The notes beneath the pieces are model-generated. The model did not search any database, had not been told where the DNA came from, and saw only the letters and a list, made by a program, of their open reading frames with translations. 23,830 nt of DNA from a virus. Position numbers and translations under genes: made by a program. Positions 3,245 through 19,327 of this stretch are shown piece after piece. The number at the start of each line of letters is the position of its first letter. The first letter of the stretch is position 1. The stretch spans positions 1 to 23,830 of IMG/VR virus record IMGVR_UViG_3300031840_000185; one strand, written 5' to 3'.

Positions 3245-3640
3245 CTATCTTAAAATTTTTCCAAATTGTTCTAATAAATAACCTACTCGTTTTGGTATTG
3301 GTTCTTGTAGGTAAAACTCTGTTGTTTCTGGTTGCTTTCTAGTTTCCCAATTAAAGTTATAGCCGTTTATTGTAAGATCAGTTATATTCCACGCAATAAT
3401 TCTTGTTTTATATTCTGTAACGTAAATAAATAGCTTTTTATCTTTAGTTGCTTGTGTGTAGTTTTTATCATACTTGTATTTCTCTATTAGCCACGGATTG
3501 TATTCACGTTGCCTAGATTTTATTTCAATTAGGTAATTATCGTTGTAGCAATCATAATGTTCGTAAATGTTTGTTGTTTCTGTAAGCTGTCCAAATACAT
3601 CTAGTTGATTTAATTTATTAATTATTTCTCGTTGCTTCAT
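3245..3640 (-). CDS. Putative PD-(D/E)XK-type nuclease
   Basis: A 131-residue protein. The pattern D30...D34...LIEIKSR (37-43, E39-x-K41), followed by a Lys-rich helix around KYKYDKN (55-61), matches the core of the PD-(D/E)XK nuclease fold (acid, then E-x-K, then a Lys/Gln helix). The segment FIYVTEYKTRIIAWNI then gives the expected extra strands. If real, it would be a small Mg-dependent endonuclease or a resolvase or repair enzyme. Its start overlaps the glycosyltransferase stop by 23 nt, so the two are co-translated. It may attack unmodified DNA, but this is inference. The assignment rests on a short motif only. Confidence 0.5.
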   Translation of the reverse strand: MKQREIINKLNQLDVFGQLTETTNIYEHYDCYNDNYLIEIKSRQREYNPWLIEKYKYDKNYTQATKDKKLFIYVTEYKTRIIAWNITDLTINGYNFNWETRKQPETTEFYLQEPIPKRVGYLLEQFGKILR

Positions 3641-4466
3641 TTTTAATCAATGCTAACCCATAGTCATTATTTTCGTTTTTTAAATGTATGCCTTTTTTAA
3701 ATATTAAGTCATTGTCTGCAAATGGCTTATAATTTACTTGATGATGAAACCTGTTAAATTTTTTTGTTAATTTTACTACGTCTGGGTGTTGATCTACTAA
3801 ACTTTGTGCAAATTCTAACCTATTGTCTGTTTCGCTATATATATCAGCATTACCACCTTTTTGTGTTGATGTTGCACGTTTACCAATTAAAAAAGTTCTA
3901 AACAAAACAGTTACCCAACCGTCTTTTAAAATTCTTAATGATAAATCTGTATCTTCGTTGTACTTGCCACGCCACCTATGTTTAATTTTATTATTTTGTA
4001 AAATACACGAATAAACACGTGTATTAAAGTGTAATGGTGGTCTTGCTTCACTTGCTGGACAAAAAATACCATAGTGCATACCAGCTTGACCAATGTTTTC
4101 ATACCTATCTACAAAATGTTCAATAATTCTAAATGGTGTTGATGTTTTACACTTTATCTTTAAATTGTTATAAAAACGTTCAACGCTTTCAATGTTGTCG
4201 TCTAAAATCCAATGCCAATCAAAGCCATTATCAATACTATGTTGCCAAACAAAATTTCTTACTGGAACAGAACCTTGACCACGTTCACTAAAGTTTTCTG
4301 GTGCTTTAATTATATTTTTTTCATCAATGACATTTGCATAATCATTGTATTCTTTTGGCTCAACCACTATTTTGTAAGGTGTGTTTGTAAATTCCATAGT
4401 TTTTACTGTTTGTCGTCTTTCCCAACGACCTTTAGATATAATATAAATTGGATATTTAGGTTTCAT
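3618..4466 (-). CDS. TET-associated-type DNA glycosyltransferase (TAGT family)
   Basis: A 282-residue GT-A fold glycosyltransferase. I recognise the phage TAGT pattern: YPIYIISKGRW (5-15), IVVEPKEY (33-40), GQGSVPVRNFVW (63-74), the metal/sugar-nucleotide motif WILDDNI (86-92), and the EDTDLSLRIL block (171-180). Known members glycosylate 5-hydroxymethylcytosine, made from 5-methylcytosine by phage TET/JBP dioxygenases, giving hypermodified DNA that resists host nucleases. No dioxygenase or C5 methyltransferase is in this window, so either they lie elsewhere in the genome or the acceptor is another hydroxylated base. The gene overlaps the 84-residue gene upstream by 11 nt and the nuclease-like gene downstream by 23 nt, forming a tight cassette. 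Confidence 0.75.
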   Translation of the reverse strand: MKPKYPIYIISKGRWERRQTVKTMEFTNTPYKIVVEPKEYNDYANVIDEKNIIKAPENFSERGQGSVPVRNFVWQHSIDNGFDWHWILDDNIESVERFYNNLKIKCKTSTPFRIIEHFVDRYENIGQAGMHYGIFCPASEARPPLHFNTRVYSCILQNNKIKHRWRGKYNEDTDLSLRILKDGWVTVLFRTFLIGKRATSTQKGGNADIYSETDNRLEFAQSLVDQHPDVVKLTKKFNRFHHQVNYKPFADNDLIFKKGIHLKNENNDYGLALIKNEATRNN

Positions 4467-4710: not shown

Positions 4711-5179
4711 TTTGCCATTTCGCAATCCATTTGTCCGTATCTTCCCAACACCATTGGCTACTACTCCACGGTTTCCAATAATTATCCCTTGTGTGCATAT
4801 CTTGTACAAGTAATGCAGCTACTTGAATATTATAACGTGGAATAAACTGTGCATAGGTATTTCCAACTGGGTAATCCCAGTAAGGTATATCGTGTTTTTC
4901 TTTTACCCAACCCCACGTTCTTGGTATTGCTTGAAATAAGCCACTATCTTGATCTTGGTAGCGATATGCGTCTGCTTTATTGCGACTTTCACACCACATT
5001 ACTTTTACAGCTGTTTCTATGTTTTTTTCATCAAAATGTTCTACAAGTAATGTTGCATATTGATAACAAGTTTCTGGTACATAATTATCGCAATCAGTTA
5101 AATTTATAACTTCATCTGCAACGCCATAACCAAAATTATTTACAAGTAAAGCGTAAATTAATATGCACTTAGTTATCAA
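4703..5179 (-). CDS. Secreted lysozyme/transglycosylase-like protein (TTG start)
   Basis: A 158-residue protein starting at TTG (5179), which overlaps the upstream TGA. Residues 1-21 form a Sec signal peptide (K4, hydrophobic 6-20, cleavage near GVA-DE). The mature part has the lysozyme-like/SLT signature: MWCESR (61-66) with the likely catalytic E64, then SGLFQAIPRTW (79-89). The C-terminus is Trp-rich (KPWSSSQWCW). Four Cys (30, 38, 63, 144) could make disulfides, fitting an exported protein. It should cleave the glycan strand of peptidoglycan. It lies in the replication operon, far from the amidase/holin lysis pair, so it may act early on the wall or release host wall material, or it may be a virion protein. 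The role is uncertain. Confidence 0.75.
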   Translation of the reverse strand: MITKCILIYALLVNNFGYGVADEVINLTDCDNYVPETCYQYATLLVEHFDEKNIETAVKVMWCESRNKADAYRYQDQDSGLFQAIPRTWGWVKEKHDIPYWDYPVGNTYAQFIPRYNIQVAALLVQDMHTRDNYWKPWSSSQWCWEDTDKWIAKWQNE

Positions 5180-5868
5180 AATAAACCTATTTGTGTGTTA
5201 TTAATGCGTTCTGTTGCATAATCATAATATTCTTTTACAAGTTCTATGCCTATAAAATTACGATTTAACTTAACACAACTTACACCTGTTGTACCCATAC
5301 CCATAAACGGATCTAGTATAATTTCATTTTCTTGTGTAAAATTTTCTATTATATAATTTGATAATTCTTGTGGCATTACAGCACTATGATTTTTTAACTT
5401 TTCATTTTTACTAATTTTATTTATTGATACTAAATTTTTAATAAAATGTTTATTTGCTTCTACGTAAATATTATTTGTAAAAAATAAAATGTATTCAACA
5501 AAATTAGAAACTCTATGTTGTATTGAACTTGGTGTACCGTCTGGTTTATACCATATAATATTTTGTTGTAATTTATCTGCAAAATGTCCCATTATTCTAT
5601 AAACTTCTTTTTTATTTGAATAATTAGGTTGTATATTCCAAATTACATACTTTTTAGATACTCTTAATAATTCATCTATTATTTCAACACACCAATCAAA
5701 ATAATTTGGATTGTTATCTTCAAAAAATTCATATTTTGCTTTCATATCACTTTTTGTTTTATTGTTAGATCTGCCAATGTTGTACGGTGGACTTGTAAAT
5801 ACATAATCTACGCTGTTGTCATCAAATTCTTTTAAAGCTTGTAAGCAATCTGCATTAATCAGTTTCAT
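5176..5868 (-). CDS. Beta-class DNA methyltransferase (N4-cytosine or N6-adenine)
   Basis: A 230-residue SAM-dependent DNA methyltransferase with motifs in the beta-class order: catalytic motif IV TSPPYNIG (25-32) first, then HSAVMPQEL (161-169), motif I DPFMGMGTTG (186-195) and FIGIEL (205-210). SPPY is most typical of N4-cytosine enzymes, but N6-adenine enzymes with this variant exist. The target-recognition part is short (about 35-150). No restriction enzyme is adjacent, so it is probably a solitary protective or regulatory methylase. It overlaps the initiator gene upstream by 14 nt and the secreted lysozyme-like gene downstream by 4 nt. Its start ATG lies inside the end of the initiator gene. 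Confidence 0.85.
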   Translation of the reverse strand: MKLINADCLQALKEFDDNSVDYVFTSPPYNIGRSNNKTKSDMKAKYEFFEDNNPNYFDWCVEIIDELLRVSKKYVIWNIQPNYSNKKEVYRIMGHFADKLQQNIIWYKPDGTPSSIQHRVSNFVEYILFFTNNIYVEANKHFIKNLVSINKISKNEKLKNHSAVMPQELSNYIIENFTQENEIILDPFMGMGTTGVSCVKLNRNFIGIELVKEYYDYATERINNTQIGLF

Positions 5869-6577
5869 TTGCCCAATCCTTTAGTGCTTTTTGATCCATA
5901 GCTTTATTTACATCTTTATTTGTTGCAGTTCTTGCACCTTTGACCAAATGCACGTTATTTACTATGCCTTGTGGTGTCAATGCACCCACGCCATACGTTT
6001 TAACTAGGTTTTCTGCAATAACTGGTATATCTGTAGGTTCATACCCGGCTTCGTGTAGTTGTTTTCCTGCTGCGTAAATCTTACCCCATTGGTTTTTAGT
6101 AGGTTTTTCATATCCACATACTTTTTGTATATTATTTACATAAAGTTCTTGTATTTCTCTAGAATATAGTTCATTGGATATAGTTCTATTGAGTATAGTT
6201 TGTGTCAAGTTTTCTATACCCCTACCTGTAACGTTTTCTTTACCCCCCCTGTCAAGTTTTCTTGACACCGGGGTAAGTTTTAAGACATAAAGATTGCTTG
6301 TTTGTTCGCCTTTATCCTTAAATCGCTGCTTTACTTCTATAACGCCTTTTTCTTCTAACCCTTGTAAAGCTGTTATTGTGCTTTGTCTTGATCTATTTAC
6401 ATCTTTAGCTAATTTACTTACACTTGGCCAACACTCTTTAGTTTTATTGTCTGCATATTGTCCTAGTGCAACATACACCATTAATTCAAGTGGTTTTAGT
6501 ATTTCTAGTAACCAATGTGGTGTAATCGTAAATGTAAATTCGTATTCACTACCAATAAACTCATCTTCTTTTGTCAT
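5855..6577 (-). CDS. Winged-helix replication initiator
   Basis: A 240-residue protein. Residues about 20-100 are a winged helix of the HTH_36 type: helix TPHWLLEILKPLELMVYVAL, then CWPSVSKLAKDVNRSRQSTITALQ with the recognition helix near 61-72, and the wing ending NLYVLKL. Residues 101-135 form a charged, flexible linker. Residues about 136-240 are a second helical domain resembling DnaD/phage O-type helicase-recruiting domains (the GxGxLTPQGI block near 196-204). Such proteins bind the origin and load the helicase. The linker-coding DNA holds iteron-like repeats, as in lambda O, which supports the role. It is followed by the methyltransferase and preceded by a loader-like gene, overlapping each by 14-17 nt. 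Confidence 0.75.
   Translation of the reverse strand: MTKEDEFIGSEYEFTFTITPHWLLEILKPLELMVYVALGQYADNKTKECWPSVSKLAKDVNRSRQSTITALQGLEEKGVIEVKQRFKDKGEQTSNLYVLKLTPVSRKLDRGGKENVTGRGIENLTQTILNRTISNELYSREIQELYVNNIQKVCGYEKPTKNQWGKIYAAGKQLHEAGYEPTDIPVIAENLVKTYGVGALTPQGIVNNVHLVKGARTATNKDVNKAMDQKALKDWANETD
6203..6276. repeat. Iteron-like repeats and dyad inside the initiator gene (candidate origin)
   Basis: Three direct repeats of the form TGTnAnGTTTTCT start at 6203, 6227 and 6250 (spacing 24 and 23 bp); the first two run on into TATACCCC or TTACCCC. The third is part of a perfect 7-bp inverted repeat, TGTCAAG-TTTT-CTTGACA (6250-6267), extended outward by TACCCC (6241-6246) and GGGGTA (6270-6275). Spacing near two helical turns and position in the linker of a winged-helix initiator match the lambda O/ori arrangement. 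AT-rich DNA lies on the low-coordinate side (about 6120-6200). Confidence 0.65.
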
Positions 6578-7055
6578 TTATATCTGTTCCAATCCCATAA
6601 CGCCACCCCATTGTATTTGCTTCACTATAACTTAAACCAACATACGGTTCAAATAGTTTTCGTTGCCAATCACGTAATCCACCAAATTTGTATAAATGTT
6701 GTGTCTTATAAAACACAGCTTCAGCAAACGTTTTATAACCCTGCATTAATAAATAGGATTGTAAGCTACTTGGTGGATCTACTTGCTTATCCTCTAATGC
6801 TTTTTGTTCACGTATTGTTTGTGCTTTTTCTGTAAACGCTTGTGTCTGGAACTCTTTGCATAATCTTTTAATCTTTGACCAATCTAAAAATTCATTACCA
6901 CTTTCAAAATAATCTAATAAGACTTTACCAAATACGTCATCATCATATATTTCAAAATCTTTATATAACGATTTTACTGAATACTCACCAAGCTGTGCGT
7001 TTGGCCACCTAACTTTTAACCAATTTATCCAATATAAAAATTCATCTTTTTGCAT
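6561..7055 (-). CDS. Putative helicase loader / replication accessory protein
   Basis: A 164-residue helical protein. The N-terminal 65 residues (WINWLKVRWPNAQL ... SLYKDFE ... FLDWSKIKRLCKEF) have the spacing of the small helical domain of phage helicase loader/inhibitor proteins of the G39P type: an aromatic helix, a 'Y..FE' helix, then 'W..I...' before a polar tail. The rest is polar and ends with a GWRYGIGTD segment. Its position directly upstream of the initiator (17-nt overlap) fits a helicase-loading partner. Similarity is by pattern only; no catalytic motif or Walker motif is present, so it is not an AAA+ DnaC-type loader. Confidence 0.45.
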   Translation of the reverse strand: MQKDEFLYWINWLKVRWPNAQLGEYSVKSLYKDFEIYDDDVFGKVLLDYFESGNEFLDWSKIKRLCKEFQTQAFTEKAQTIREQKALEDKQVDPPSSLQSYLLMQGYKTFAEAVFYKTQHLYKFGGLRDWQRKLFEPYVGLSYSEANTMGWRYGIGTDINDKRR

Positions 7056-11105: not shown

Positions 11106-11285
11106 TTATTTTCTAAAATTTATTGTTGCAAACCAAACACCAAAACTTATTAGGATCATAATACCTACAACGTCTTTAGACGTTCCAGTCAAGAGAAAAT
11201 AAGAAATCGCAAAACCCAAAATGGTGAACGTCTGTGCTGCTGTTTCTCTAAGTATCGCTATTATGCCGTTATATATTTTTTTCAT
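11106..11285 (-). CDS. Small two-segment membrane protein
   Basis: A 59-residue ORF whose ATG overlaps the TAA of the 570-residue surface-protein gene (TAATG), implying coupled translation. Two hydrophobic segments are clear: about 20-33 (FTILGFAISYFLL) and 39-54 (VVGIMILISFGVWFA), joined by a short TGTSKD turn, with Lys at both ends. It could be a second holin or antiholin, or a membrane partner of the exported protein. A 7-bp inverted repeat (AACGTCT-TT-AGACGTT, 11169-11184) lies within the coding sequence. Confidence 0.7.
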   Translation of the reverse strand: MKKIYNGIIAILRETAAQTFTILGFAISYFLLTGTSKDVVGIMILISFGVWFATINFRK

Positions 11286-12997
11286 TAAAATCTTCTAGTT
11301 ATTGGTGTAGCAATAATCTGGCCAACAATAATTACCGGGACAACTGTTTTAGCTGCTTGTGTCTTTACTGCTTGTGGCATATCACTACCAATATCTGATA
11401 ATACTACACCAGACAAATCAATATCAGTTAGTTGTCCTAATGGATTTTGTATAAATTCTTCTATACCTATTTCAACGATTACGTTTTGTATTCCATAATC
11501 TTCTACATCTGCGTTTTCTGTTGCACGTTCTACATACTCTTGTACAGCTGTTGCAATAGTTTTATCTTCTATAGATTGTTTTGCAATTATTACAACGTCA
11601 TTAGTTTCTTGTACACCAAGCACTTCAGCAACAACTTCTTTTTCTTCTTCACTAAGTTCTGCAACTGTTTCAGGTTTAGTTACTTCTACTACAACAGCTT
11701 GTACAATTTGTTTTGTTTCTTCAGTAGCTTTATCTAAATTTTGTACACTTACTTTTGCTACTTCTTTTACAACTTCTATTTTTTCTTCTACCGGTAATGC
11801 TTGAACAGCTTCAACTATTTCTTTTTCGGTAGTATCTTCTGTAATTTCAACAACTTGTATTTTTAATTCAACTTGTTTTATTACTTCTTCTTGTTCTTCA
11901 TCTGATAAATCTTCTAGTGGTGTTTCGTTATTTCTTCTACCCACTTCTTCTTGTTCGTCTGGAATAATATCCACAATTTCATCTTCTTCAAAAACCTCTT
12001 TAATAGGTTCTGTATCTTCTTCTTCATATAAATCTTCCTGTTCTATAATTATTATTTCTGGTAGATCAAGTACAATAACTTCTTCTTCTATTTCGTATTG
12101 TTCTAAATCTTGTTCTTGTATTTCTTGTATTACGTCAATAAGTTCCTGTATTTCTTCTAATTCTTCATCTGATAATTTTTCAACATCAACATCTTTTAAT
12201 ATTGATTGTTCTAATTCTTTTTGTATCGCTGCTTCTTTTTCAGCTTCAATGCGTTCAGCTTCTTCTCTGTCTGCTCTCTCTTTGTTAGTTTCGTATATAC
12301 CAGTTTCTAAAAAATTTAATTCTTCTTCTGTTGGAGGTATTGTTGTAGTCGTTGTAGTAGTAGTAGTTGTTGTAGTTTCTGGTACAACGATAGGTTCTTT
12401 ACAATCACCATTCTGATAACCAAACCACTCTTTGCTTTCAATAGCTGTAAGATATTCTTTATATGAAAGCGGATTGTTTGGGTGCTCACACCCATTTTTA
12501 TCCCAAGCCAAGTACGTAGTAATACCATCTTCAACGACTTCTTCTGCTTTGGGTAGCGTAGTTGTTGTCGTACTAGATGTCGTTGTAGTAGGTATAAAAA
12601 CATAATTATATAATACACTTTGTACAGGAGTAAAGTCGCTAGTTGTACCATTAGTATCGTGAAATGCTTTTACCTTTGCATATATATTTTGATTATCTAC
12701 AGACAATTCGTTGTATAAATACTCTGCTGTAAATGTATAACTTTGCCAAGACAATGCTTCTGTAAAACCAAATTTTGTTTGTACTGATTTATCATCAGCA
12801 GTTTCAGTAAGTCCTATATAAACTATGTAGTATTCAGGTGGGTTATCTTCATAGCCATCACTTTCCTGCCAACTAACTGTAATACTTCCATCATTATTTA
12901 ATGTATTAGTAATACCATAAGGTGTTTGTGTTTCTGTATGGTAAGCCATTACAGGTAAAGGTATCAATAAAAAAATAGCAAATAATACCCTTAGCAT
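11285..12997 (-). CDS. Exported Thr-linker, Glu-rich surface protein of unknown function
   Basis: A 570-residue protein. Residues 1-18 are a Sec signal peptide ending VMA. Residues about 20-132 form a fibronectin-III-like beta domain (ITVSWQESDG, YYIVYIGLTE, IYAKVKAFHD). A Thr/Ser linker (137-147) leads to a small domain (150-205) with two Cys (170, 199), and a second Thr run (208-219) leads to a long acidic helical part. There, LSDEELEE (275), LSDEEQEE (364) and LSEEEKEV (448) recur at about 85-90 residues, marking diverged repeats. The C-terminus has a short hydrophobic stretch (552-565) and ends TRRF, like a membrane anchor. Such Thr-linked exported proteins are typical of host surfaces. 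Placed between tail and lysis genes, it could be a surface decoy, a superinfection-exclusion factor or a wall-associated factor; none is proven. Confidence 0.75.
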   Translation of the reverse strand: MLRVLFAIFLLIPLPVMAYHTETQTPYGITNTLNNDGSITVSWQESDGYEDNPPEYYIVYIGLTETADDKSVQTKFGFTEALSWQSYTFTAEYLYNELSVDNQNIYAKVKAFHDTNGTTSDFTPVQSVLYNYVFIPTTTTSSTTTTTLPKAEEVVEDGITTYLAWDKNGCEHPNNPLSYKEYLTAIESKEWFGYQNGDCKEPIVVPETTTTTTTTTTTTIPPTEEELNFLETGIYETNKERADREEAERIEAEKEAAIQKELEQSILKDVDVEKLSDEELEEIQELIDVIQEIQEQDLEQYEIEEEVIVLDLPEIIIIEQEDLYEEEDTEPIKEVFEEDEIVDIIPDEQEEVGRRNNETPLEDLSDEEQEEVIKQVELKIQVVEITEDTTEKEIVEAVQALPVEEKIEVVKEVAKVSVQNLDKATEETKQIVQAVVVEVTKPETVAELSEEEKEVVAEVLGVQETNDVVIIAKQSIEDKTIATAVQEYVERATENADVEDYGIQNVIVEIGIEEFIQNPLGQLTDIDLSGVVLSDIGSDMPQAVKTQAAKTVVPVIIVGQIIATPITRRF

Positions 12998-17936: not shown

Positions 17937-19327
17937 TACAATATATCTATTCTTGCAGCACCACCGTTTTGACGCTTAAATTCTCTTGCACCTCTAGCAA
18001 ATAAATCACTAGCTTCTTGATCTGTTGTAATTGGTGCATAGTTGTTGATTGTTATTCCTGCTGGTTGTGTTGGTGTAAACTGTGTGGCACTTGTTGCTGC
18101 CGTTGCTAATAAACCTGTTGCTGTACGTTGTGCGTCTATGTCATCTGCCGAAACAATAGGTGCTATATCTTTTTCACCTAATCCAAAATCTACTTCACTA
18201 AACTTACGCAGTTTTGGTATATCTATCTTTATACCAATCTTGCCTAATATTCTTTGTGCTTTTTCAGCAAAACTATTTAACTTGTCTGCAAACTTATTAA
18301 ATCCACGAATAATTTTATTAATCATATCTTCAAAATTCTTTGGTAAGTTTTCTAAAAATGGTGCAAGAAATTTATTAGCAAATTCTGTCATCTTTTTAAA
18401 TGCTGGTGCTAATGCTTGAAGCAGTAAAGTTACTATTGCGATAATTGGTGGTGCTAATAATGCAATCATTTCTCCAATAGATGATAAAAATGGTGCTACA
18501 CCTTTTATAGCGTCTATTAATGACGGCCCGATTTGCTGTACCATATCTACAATTACTGGTAGTAACTGTTCTGCAATAGGTAATAACTCTTGACCAAGTT
18601 GTACTTTTAATTCTTTAACTTGTGCTTGTGCTTTCCTAGATTTATTTGCAAAACTATCCTGCGTTCTATTTAGATCGCCCTGCTGTACTGTTGTTTTCTT
18701 TAATAACAACTCATAAGTAGCTAATGCACGTTCTTGCTTAGTAAGTTCATTTCTTGAACTTTTACCTGTCATTTCAAACGCTTTTGTTTCTACTTCAGCT
18801 TGTGAAATAGCAATACCATACGTTTTAAGACTTTCGTTTTCACCAAGTAACGATTTAGTAAATGCTTCTAATACTGGTTGAGCACCACCTTGTACGTTAG
18901 CAAAAGAAGCAACATCACCAGCTAATGCAGCAAGTTTTGTTCCTAGATCACCAGACGCTTCAGCTGTAAAGTCAATACCTTGTAATACTGCACCTGTGTT
19001 TGTTAGTAGTCCCTCTAATTCAAATGCAGCTAAACCAGCTTTATTTGCAAATTCCTCTACGAAACCAGATACTTGTGGTAATGCGTCCCCAAATGTTGTT
19101 TCAAATGCAGAACGTGCTTCACCTGCGTCTGAAGCTAAATTAACTAAATCTTTACCAACTGTTGCTGCTGCTGCACCAATACCTGCAATACCAAATGCTG
19201 CTGCTTTACCTATTCCAGCTGCAACACTTCCTAAACCTTGTAATGCTTTTTGTCCTTTTGTTAATGACTTAACAAACTGGTCGGTTTTACCGATTATTGC
19301 TATTGATACTTTTTTTTCAAATGCCAT
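17936..19327 (-). CDS. Tail tape measure protein
   Basis: A 463-residue protein, the largest of the tail module apart from the surface protein. The Ala/Gly-rich membrane-like N-terminal segment (GSVAAGIGKAAAFGIAGIGA), the AFETTFGDALPQV and ALAGDVASFANV blocks, and a hydrophobic middle (IGEMIALLAPPIIAIVTLLLQ) followed by a helical tail are typical of siphovirus tape measures. At about 1.5 angstrom per residue it would set a short tail of roughly 70 nm (family rule, not measured here). Position right after the chaperones supports the call. Confidence 0.9.
   Translation of the reverse strand: MAFEKKVSIAIIGKTDQFVKSLTKGQKALQGLGSVAAGIGKAAAFGIAGIGAAAATVGKDLVNLASDAGEARSAFETTFGDALPQVSGFVEEFANKAGLAAFELEGLLTNTGAVLQGIDFTAEASGDLGTKLAALAGDVASFANVQGGAQPVLEAFTKSLLGENESLKTYGIAISQAEVETKAFEMTGKSSRNELTKQERALATYELLLKKTTVQQGDLNRTQDSFANKSRKAQAQVKELKVQLGQELLPIAEQLLPVIVDMVQQIGPSLIDAIKGVAPFLSSIGEMIALLAPPIIAIVTLLLQALAPAFKKMTEFANKFLAPFLENLPKNFEDMINKIIRGFNKFADKLNSFAEKAQRILGKIGIKIDIPKLRKFSEVDFGLGEKDIAPIVSADDIDAQRTATGLLATAATSATQFTPTQPAGITINNYAPITTDQEASDLFARGAREFKRQNGGAARIDIL

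Follow-up and report, generated by a model that had tools for sequence, protein, structure and literature searches.

Does a set of repeats inside a viral initiator gene mark the place at which replication starts? The window, by which we mean the whole stretch of DNA analysed here, is a virus record of 23,830 bases whose recognisable genes lie mostly on the minus strand, and a sequence-only reading had placed a candidate replication origin inside one of them. Anatomy and DNA-level conservation both support this prediction, and we consider it highly likely that positions 6167-6268 form the intragenic, lambda-like replication origin of an Actinomarina phage. The limits first proposed, 6203-6276, do not describe the whole unit: their low end stops too short, and the constrained unit extends from 6268 down to 6167 (Table 1). 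For phages of uncultured Actinomarina, which are tiny marine actinobacteria, this would place a probable replication origin to approximately 100 bp.

Table 1. Features of the initiator gene, the proposed origin and the adjacent upstream gene (window coordinates).
Feature	Position	Strand	Basis
164-aa gene directly upstream of the initiator	6561..7055	-	Homologues in 15/15 records searched
Replication initiator gene, 240 aa, HTH_36 winged helix and helical C-terminal domain	5855..6577	-	Pfam, PHROG, AlphaFold2
Winged-helix DNA-binding domain, residues 19-99	6281..6523	-	Pfam, AlphaFold2, Foldseek
Block under synonymous constraint, codons 104-137, with iterons and AT-rich repeats; proposed origin	6167..6268	-	pS in 14 sequences
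Iteron 1, perfect dyad TGTCAAG-AAAA-CTTGACA, TGTCAAGAAAACTTGACA; frame differs from iterons 2 and 3	6250..6267	-	Repeat search, dyad count, relatives
Iteron 2, GGTAAAGAAAACGTTACA, 5/7 arm pairs	6227..6244	-	Repeat search, dyad count
Iteron 3, GGTATAGAAAACTTGACA, 4/7 arm pairs	6203..6220	-	Repeat search, dyad count
AT-rich repeat 1, AACTA within AACTATA	6196..6200	-	Triple in 33/33 family genes
AT-rich repeat 2, AACTA, 15 nt from repeat 1	6181..6185	-	Family gene comparison
AT-rich repeat 3, AACTA, 14 nt from repeat 2, in another reading frame	6167..6171	-	Family gene comparison
Helical C-terminal domain, residues approximately 140-213; exchanged among family members	5939..6160	-	AlphaFold2 and relatives

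The initiator and the repeats within its gene

The 240-aa protein carries the hallmark of HTH_36 phage initiators, PF13730 in its N-terminal part (residues 27-78, E 1.6e-13, 50.6 bits against a cut-off of 25). It matches 21 PHROG families, most of them replication initiation proteins (best 1.3e-17), including 'replication initiation O-like' at 8.2e-11. An AlphaFold2 model built with 22 sequences (mean pLDDT 66.8) comprises a winged helix at approximately residues 19-99, a linker at residues 102-136 that is predicted to be disordered (pLDDT below 50), and a helical domain from residue 140. With these boundaries the array does sit, as had been proposed, between the winged helix and the C-terminal domain. 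The top PDB match of the model in Foldseek is weak (5kbj, a Rep-DNA complex, E 0.0084), and weaker ones are to other initiator and DnaD N-terminal domains amid many winged-helix regulators.

Viral contigs were scanned with a protein query (25 loci) and an alignment query (38 loci), many of the loci being on the same contigs. Four distant loci (L059-L062) of the 38 are excluded from the family count, and the resulting set of 33 genes omits L014 and L022 (which closely resemble L013 and L021), the partial genes L015, L016, L017 and L023, and duplicate contig copies (L027-L053 where repeated).

A mechanical repeat search recovered the predicted direct repeats at 23-24-bp spacing as three 18-bp iterons starting at 6203, 6227 and 6250 (spacing 24 and 23), and the 7-bp perfect dyad is present at 6250-6267 with a 4-bp centre. 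In iterons 2 and 3 the dyad is imperfect. At 0-1 mismatch the iteron pattern occurs in the window only at these three sites; a fourth, at 18342, has 3 mismatches and is no more than chance would produce, and the pattern search found no second iteron array in the window. The dyad of iteron 1 is perfect (7/7 arm pairs) in 13/14 near relatives. Dyad symmetry is also retained through paired changes, as in AGTAACG-AAAA-CGTTACC of L039. In L054-L058 the iterons are hard to recognise with the anchoring used, having 1-6 of 7 arm pairs.

How unusual these repeats are was assessed by recoding codons 100-139 synonymously 2,000 times with the protein fixed. The observed three-copy repeat score of 27/32 was reached by none of the 2,000 recodings (best 26). 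The dyad alone is unremarkable, with arms of at least 7 arising in 77/2000. An equal repeat score is reached by three further 120-nt segments elsewhere in the window, which overlap one another (starts 12041-12081); that of the iterons therefore stands out only when the protein and the conservation are taken into account. The gene holding these segments, which are the only others with that score, lies at 11285-12997 and encodes a 570-aa acidic protein with Thr-rich runs.

Adjoining iteron 3, in AT-rich DNA, is a triple of AACTA that was absent from the earlier description. The triple is kept in 33/33 family genes, with spacings of 15 and 14 nt in 28 and of 16 and 15 nt in 5 (L054-L058). The tract (6156-6200) is 73% AT, and its stability is below that of 94% of the window's 45-nt segments. 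At 14-15 nt apart, the repeats form no trinucleotide run of the DnaA-trio kind.

Selection on the DNA and rival explanations

The synonymous divergence (pS) in codons 104-137 is 0.040, versus 0.533 elsewhere in the gene, among 14 near relatives. None of 20,000 random codon sets of equal size was as low, and among 140 contiguous blocks outside the region pS went no lower than 0.427. The constrained block of the near clade spans from the opening codon of iteron 1 to the third AACTA, and a sliding profile along the gene also shows the synonymous constraint. Across 12 far relatives, codons 100-144 (numbered as in L019) have a pS of 0.192, versus 0.535 elsewhere (both sets omit L039, L046 and L054-L058). 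Thus, in relatives whose initiators can be aligned, the repeats are conserved far more than coding constraint would account for; together with the recoding result, these frozen synonymous sites bear out the suggestion that the DNA encoding the linker is under selection.

A change of reading frame separates the two levels of selection further. In 14/14 near relatives the reading frame of iteron 1 (frame 1) is shifted by one from that of iterons 2 and 3, while all iterons are in frame 0 in 12/12 far relatives, and the peptide encoded by iteron 1 is VSRKLDR in the near clade versus S(K/Q)ENLTT in the far clade. Compared with L018, L012 has one extra base ahead of iteron 1 and one fewer behind it; the iteron cores (GTCAAGAAAACTTGAC and GTCAAGAAAACTTAAC) have 15/16 bases in common, and the peptides are VSRKLDR and SQENLTT, respectively. 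As judged from these alignments, compensated indels have altered the peptide of iteron 1 while preserving its DNA, a change for which selection on the protein is a poor explanation. The compensated frameshift is a natural experiment that separates DNA selection from protein selection.

The locus shows four features of a lambda-like origin: binding-site-like repeats inside the initiator's own gene, dyad symmetry of the iterons, an adjacent AT-rich tract, and selection on the DNA beyond the protein. GC skew, which had been put forward as a check, has a single sign across the whole window with no switch at the iterons. Six longer relatives also have one sign along the initiator strand, except in one end bin of the contig from a single-cell genome. 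Given that the contigs are fragmentary or of uncertain completeness and that the window's genes are mostly on one strand, the skew is uninformative, and we rejected it as an origin locator.

We propose that the HTH_36 winged helix of the initiator would bind the three dyad iterons, with their A4 centres 23-24 bp apart, and build a nucleoprotein complex on them. The adjoining AT-rich tract would then melt, one strand being held via the AACTA repeats, which are spaced 15 and 14 nt, and the exchangeable C-terminal domain would recruit a helicase or helicase loader. The unstructured protein linker may be the place where the gene can carry origin DNA.

Winged-helix initiators often autoregulate, and adjacent dyad sites would suit a repressor array; moreover, CTTGACA resembles a -35 box. 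The repeats could thus be operators through which the initiator or another regulator controls transcription of the operon. We consider this improbable, however, since the sites lie mid-gene, approximately 310-375 nt past the start codon, with no promoter-like site overlapping the iterons and no terminator-like site in 6050-6700, and since the constraint extends over the AT-rich repeats, which an operator array would not need.

Slightly less probable still is that the segment serves mainly for recombination, as a site where C-terminal modules are swapped, its similarity among relatives reflecting recent exchange and not function. Exchange does take place here: identity between the initiators of the window and L011 drops from 87% in the N part to 41% in the C part, versus 56% and 57% for L011 and L021, and from such comparisons the C-terminal domains have evidently been swapped among relatives (L011-L014, L021 and L063), 3' of the origin array. 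Yet recent exchange alone would not preserve motifs through frame changes, nor would it keep the AACTA triple beside the unrelated iterons of other phages or in the non-coding DNA of L191 (see below). The conservation of the proposed origin may well have exchange as a by-product.

Selection for mRNA structure, in the form of an iteron 1 hairpin with an outer stem, is very unlikely. An 88-nt stretch of the window does fold well (-22.5 kcal/mol, z -2.63, 3/200 shuffles as stable), but the outer TACCCC/GGGGTA pair pointed out in the sequence-only reading, although present in the window, is conserved in 0/32 other family members, and the TACCCC arm occurs in 1/33, the window alone. The inner stem is broken without compensation in L013, fold energies among relatives range from -10.1 to -27.9, and the constraint is equally strong beyond the hairpin, in iteron 3 and the AT repeats. 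We also rejected a terminator reading of the hairpin, no terminator having been found in 6050-6700. Just as implausible is selection for an S-K-E-N-L-T-T peptide repeat of which the DNA repeat is a consequence: far-clade iterons do share a single frame, and the peptides they encode are (P/G)SKENLTT-like repeats, but iteron 1 is off-frame and encodes VSRKLDR in 14/14 near relatives, synonymous sites are frozen with 0/2000 recodings reaching the repeat score, and the linker is predicted to be disordered.

Known origins and the AACTA repeats beyond the family

The array is very probably an intragenic origin that functions as lambda's does, now in a new host group. In lambda, each iteron is an inverted repeat and an AT-rich tract adjoins (PMC7466680); judging from that description, the window shares with lambda ori imperfect inverted-repeat iterons with an A-rich centre, a 20-24 bp spacing, the AT-rich tract and the intragenic location. 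We located the lambda iterons at 39034, 39054, 39078 and 39101 in gene O, each 18 bp long and with spacings of 20, 24 and 23. There are thus four iterons versus three in the window, and their sequences are unrelated; in addition, the O gene has no AACTA, and the window initiator has no match to Pfam Phage_rep_O (PF04492) at E 0.1. The origins of plasmid Reps usually lie outside the rep gene.

Iteron plasmids (RK2 with TrfA, F with RepE) are similar in having a winged-helix initiator, iterons and short unwinding-element repeats, and TrfA is described as binding one strand of the unwinding-element 13-mers sequence-specifically, all four 13-mers being needed (PMC4081077). These Reps have two winged-helix domains (PMC4081077), whereas the window initiator is modelled with a single one followed by a helical C domain, and its array is intragenic. 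The repeats of SPP1 oriL lie within gene 38, whose product binds them (PMC6316719), and by that description this gene, too, carries both direct repeats and an AT-rich unwinding element. SPP1 differs in having a second origin and the helicase loader gp39 (PMC6316719), while the window yielded no second array in the pattern search and no loader among adjacent proteins. For the mycobacteriophages Miko and Rachaly, which have a RepA-like HTH initiator, the origin has been suspected to lie within repA or immediately before it, as in lambda (PMC7157519); the authors reported no repeated motifs in the stretch analysed, in contrast to the explicit iterons and AT repeats of the window. The unwinding element of V. 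cholerae ori2 is reported to contain (G/A)ATCA repeats (PMC10797057).

The most novel point is that the AACTA triple recurs beside unrelated iterons in the HTH_36 initiator genes of unrelated phages. Intragenic iterons followed by AT-rich DNA are found in other phage initiators (for example in Parageobacillus JGon-2020a, Arthrobacter Salgado and the oral phage D_HF5_3), with iteron sequences that differ from the window's. Among 24 initiator clusters, AACTA, a motif first spotted by eye, is the 5-mer most often tripled within 45 nt (8/24, followed by AAGAA with 7/24), and 4 of these 8 clusters are the Actinomarina-phage family itself. As a universal motif AACTA was rejected, since 16/24 clusters are without three copies within 45 nt and lambda O is without AACTA altogether.

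Two DNA-only viral scans, for triples of AACTAT and of GAACTA (the second pattern picked after seeing the results of the first), gave at least 264 matches. Among those listed, 20 fall within an open reading frame downstream of a winged-helix signature in sense, and 0 do so in antisense. Half of the 20 sense matches listed belong to the Actinomarina-phage family; the other 10 have unrelated iterons (L168, L206, L183, L203, L218, L299, L351, L363, L368 and L392). HTH_36 was detected in 7/7 of the non-family matches scanned with Pfam (L168, L183, L299, L351, L363, L368 and L392, the scan having left out L203, L206 and L218), and the protein of L367, which is cut at its start, had no Pfam match. 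Pairwise BLAST indicates that the winged helix is the part common to most lineages. The frames of the repeats vary across lineages (1,2,0 in L183; 2,1,0 in L363; 1,0,2 in L083). In L191 (121-620), a 93-aa winged-helix gene stops ahead of three iterons and an AACTATA triple, the latter again spaced 15 and 14 nt, in DNA that has no long open frame in this orientation.

Direct repeats are found upstream of the AACTAT pattern in 25 and downstream in 6 of the 122 matches listed. The GAACTA pattern shows no such upstream excess (23 versus 30 of the 142 matches listed), its repeats being mostly simple tandem ones. Of 296 host-phylum genomes, 4 contain the GAACTA triple, 3 a control GAATCA triple and 5 the reversed control, so that the motif is no more frequent there than a control pattern. 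One GAACTA match was inspected in each of the 4 genomes, and none of these is in a recognisable initiator. The literature on phage origins, searched with terms other than the motif itself, yielded no account of AACTA repeats.

It is possible, if rather less than probable, that many phages with HTH_36 initiators share an unwinding-element code, AACTA(T) three times at approximately 13-16 nt, beside lineage-specific iterons. One melted strand would be captured through AACTA by the shared winged helix or by a conserved host factor, and the modules for iteron recognition and for C-terminal helicase loading would evolve and swap freely. Should AACTA be such a code, DNA alone could suffice to locate the origins of many phages not yet annotated, and cultured phages with the same array, such as Microbacterium phage Margaery or Parageobacillus phage JGon-2020a, would allow a direct test of how the melted strand is held by phage initiators. 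Other initiators, found via a shared C-terminal domain (L096-L146), often carry linker repeats with AT-rich DNA behind them, in which the repeats are of the AAGAA type and not AACTA.

Host and neighbouring genes

A contig of the Candidatus Actinomarina single-cell genome AG-919-G14 (CACMQN010000011) encodes an initiator 55% identical to that of the window, with the same array, and carries homologues of most window genes (major capsid protein, 86%). A 29-kb phage sequence of AG-919-G14, with WhiB, has been described (PMC7771536), and the passages of that account on the phage sequence mention no origin. WhiB is also encoded in the window, as identified with Pfam. Based on WhiB and the genes shared with the AG-919-G14 contig, the host of the window virus is probably Actinomarina.

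That the gene directly upstream of the initiator might encode a helicase loader is a guess which sequence and fold searches did not bear out. Its product has no Pfam match at E 0.1; the best PHROG hit (0.0019) covers 4/15 members and is to a family with an unrelated label, and neither PDB sequences (nothing better than 0.27) nor Foldseek (nothing better than E 4.2) pointed to a function. Family, PDB and Foldseek searches identified no adjacent protein as a helicase loader.

Elsewhere in the window, the WhiB-like protein (999-1655) has 218 residues, with the WhiB domain at residues 3-64 followed by a long extension. Two DNA methyltransferase genes, N6_N4_Mtase (5176-5868) and Dam-like (486-986), are patchy among relatives, and the former overlaps the end of the initiator gene. 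A TET-associated glycosyltransferase (TAGT, E 2.5e-41) is encoded at 3618-4466, with no match in the 6 longer relatives; its presence suggests that the DNA of this phage may contain modified bases.
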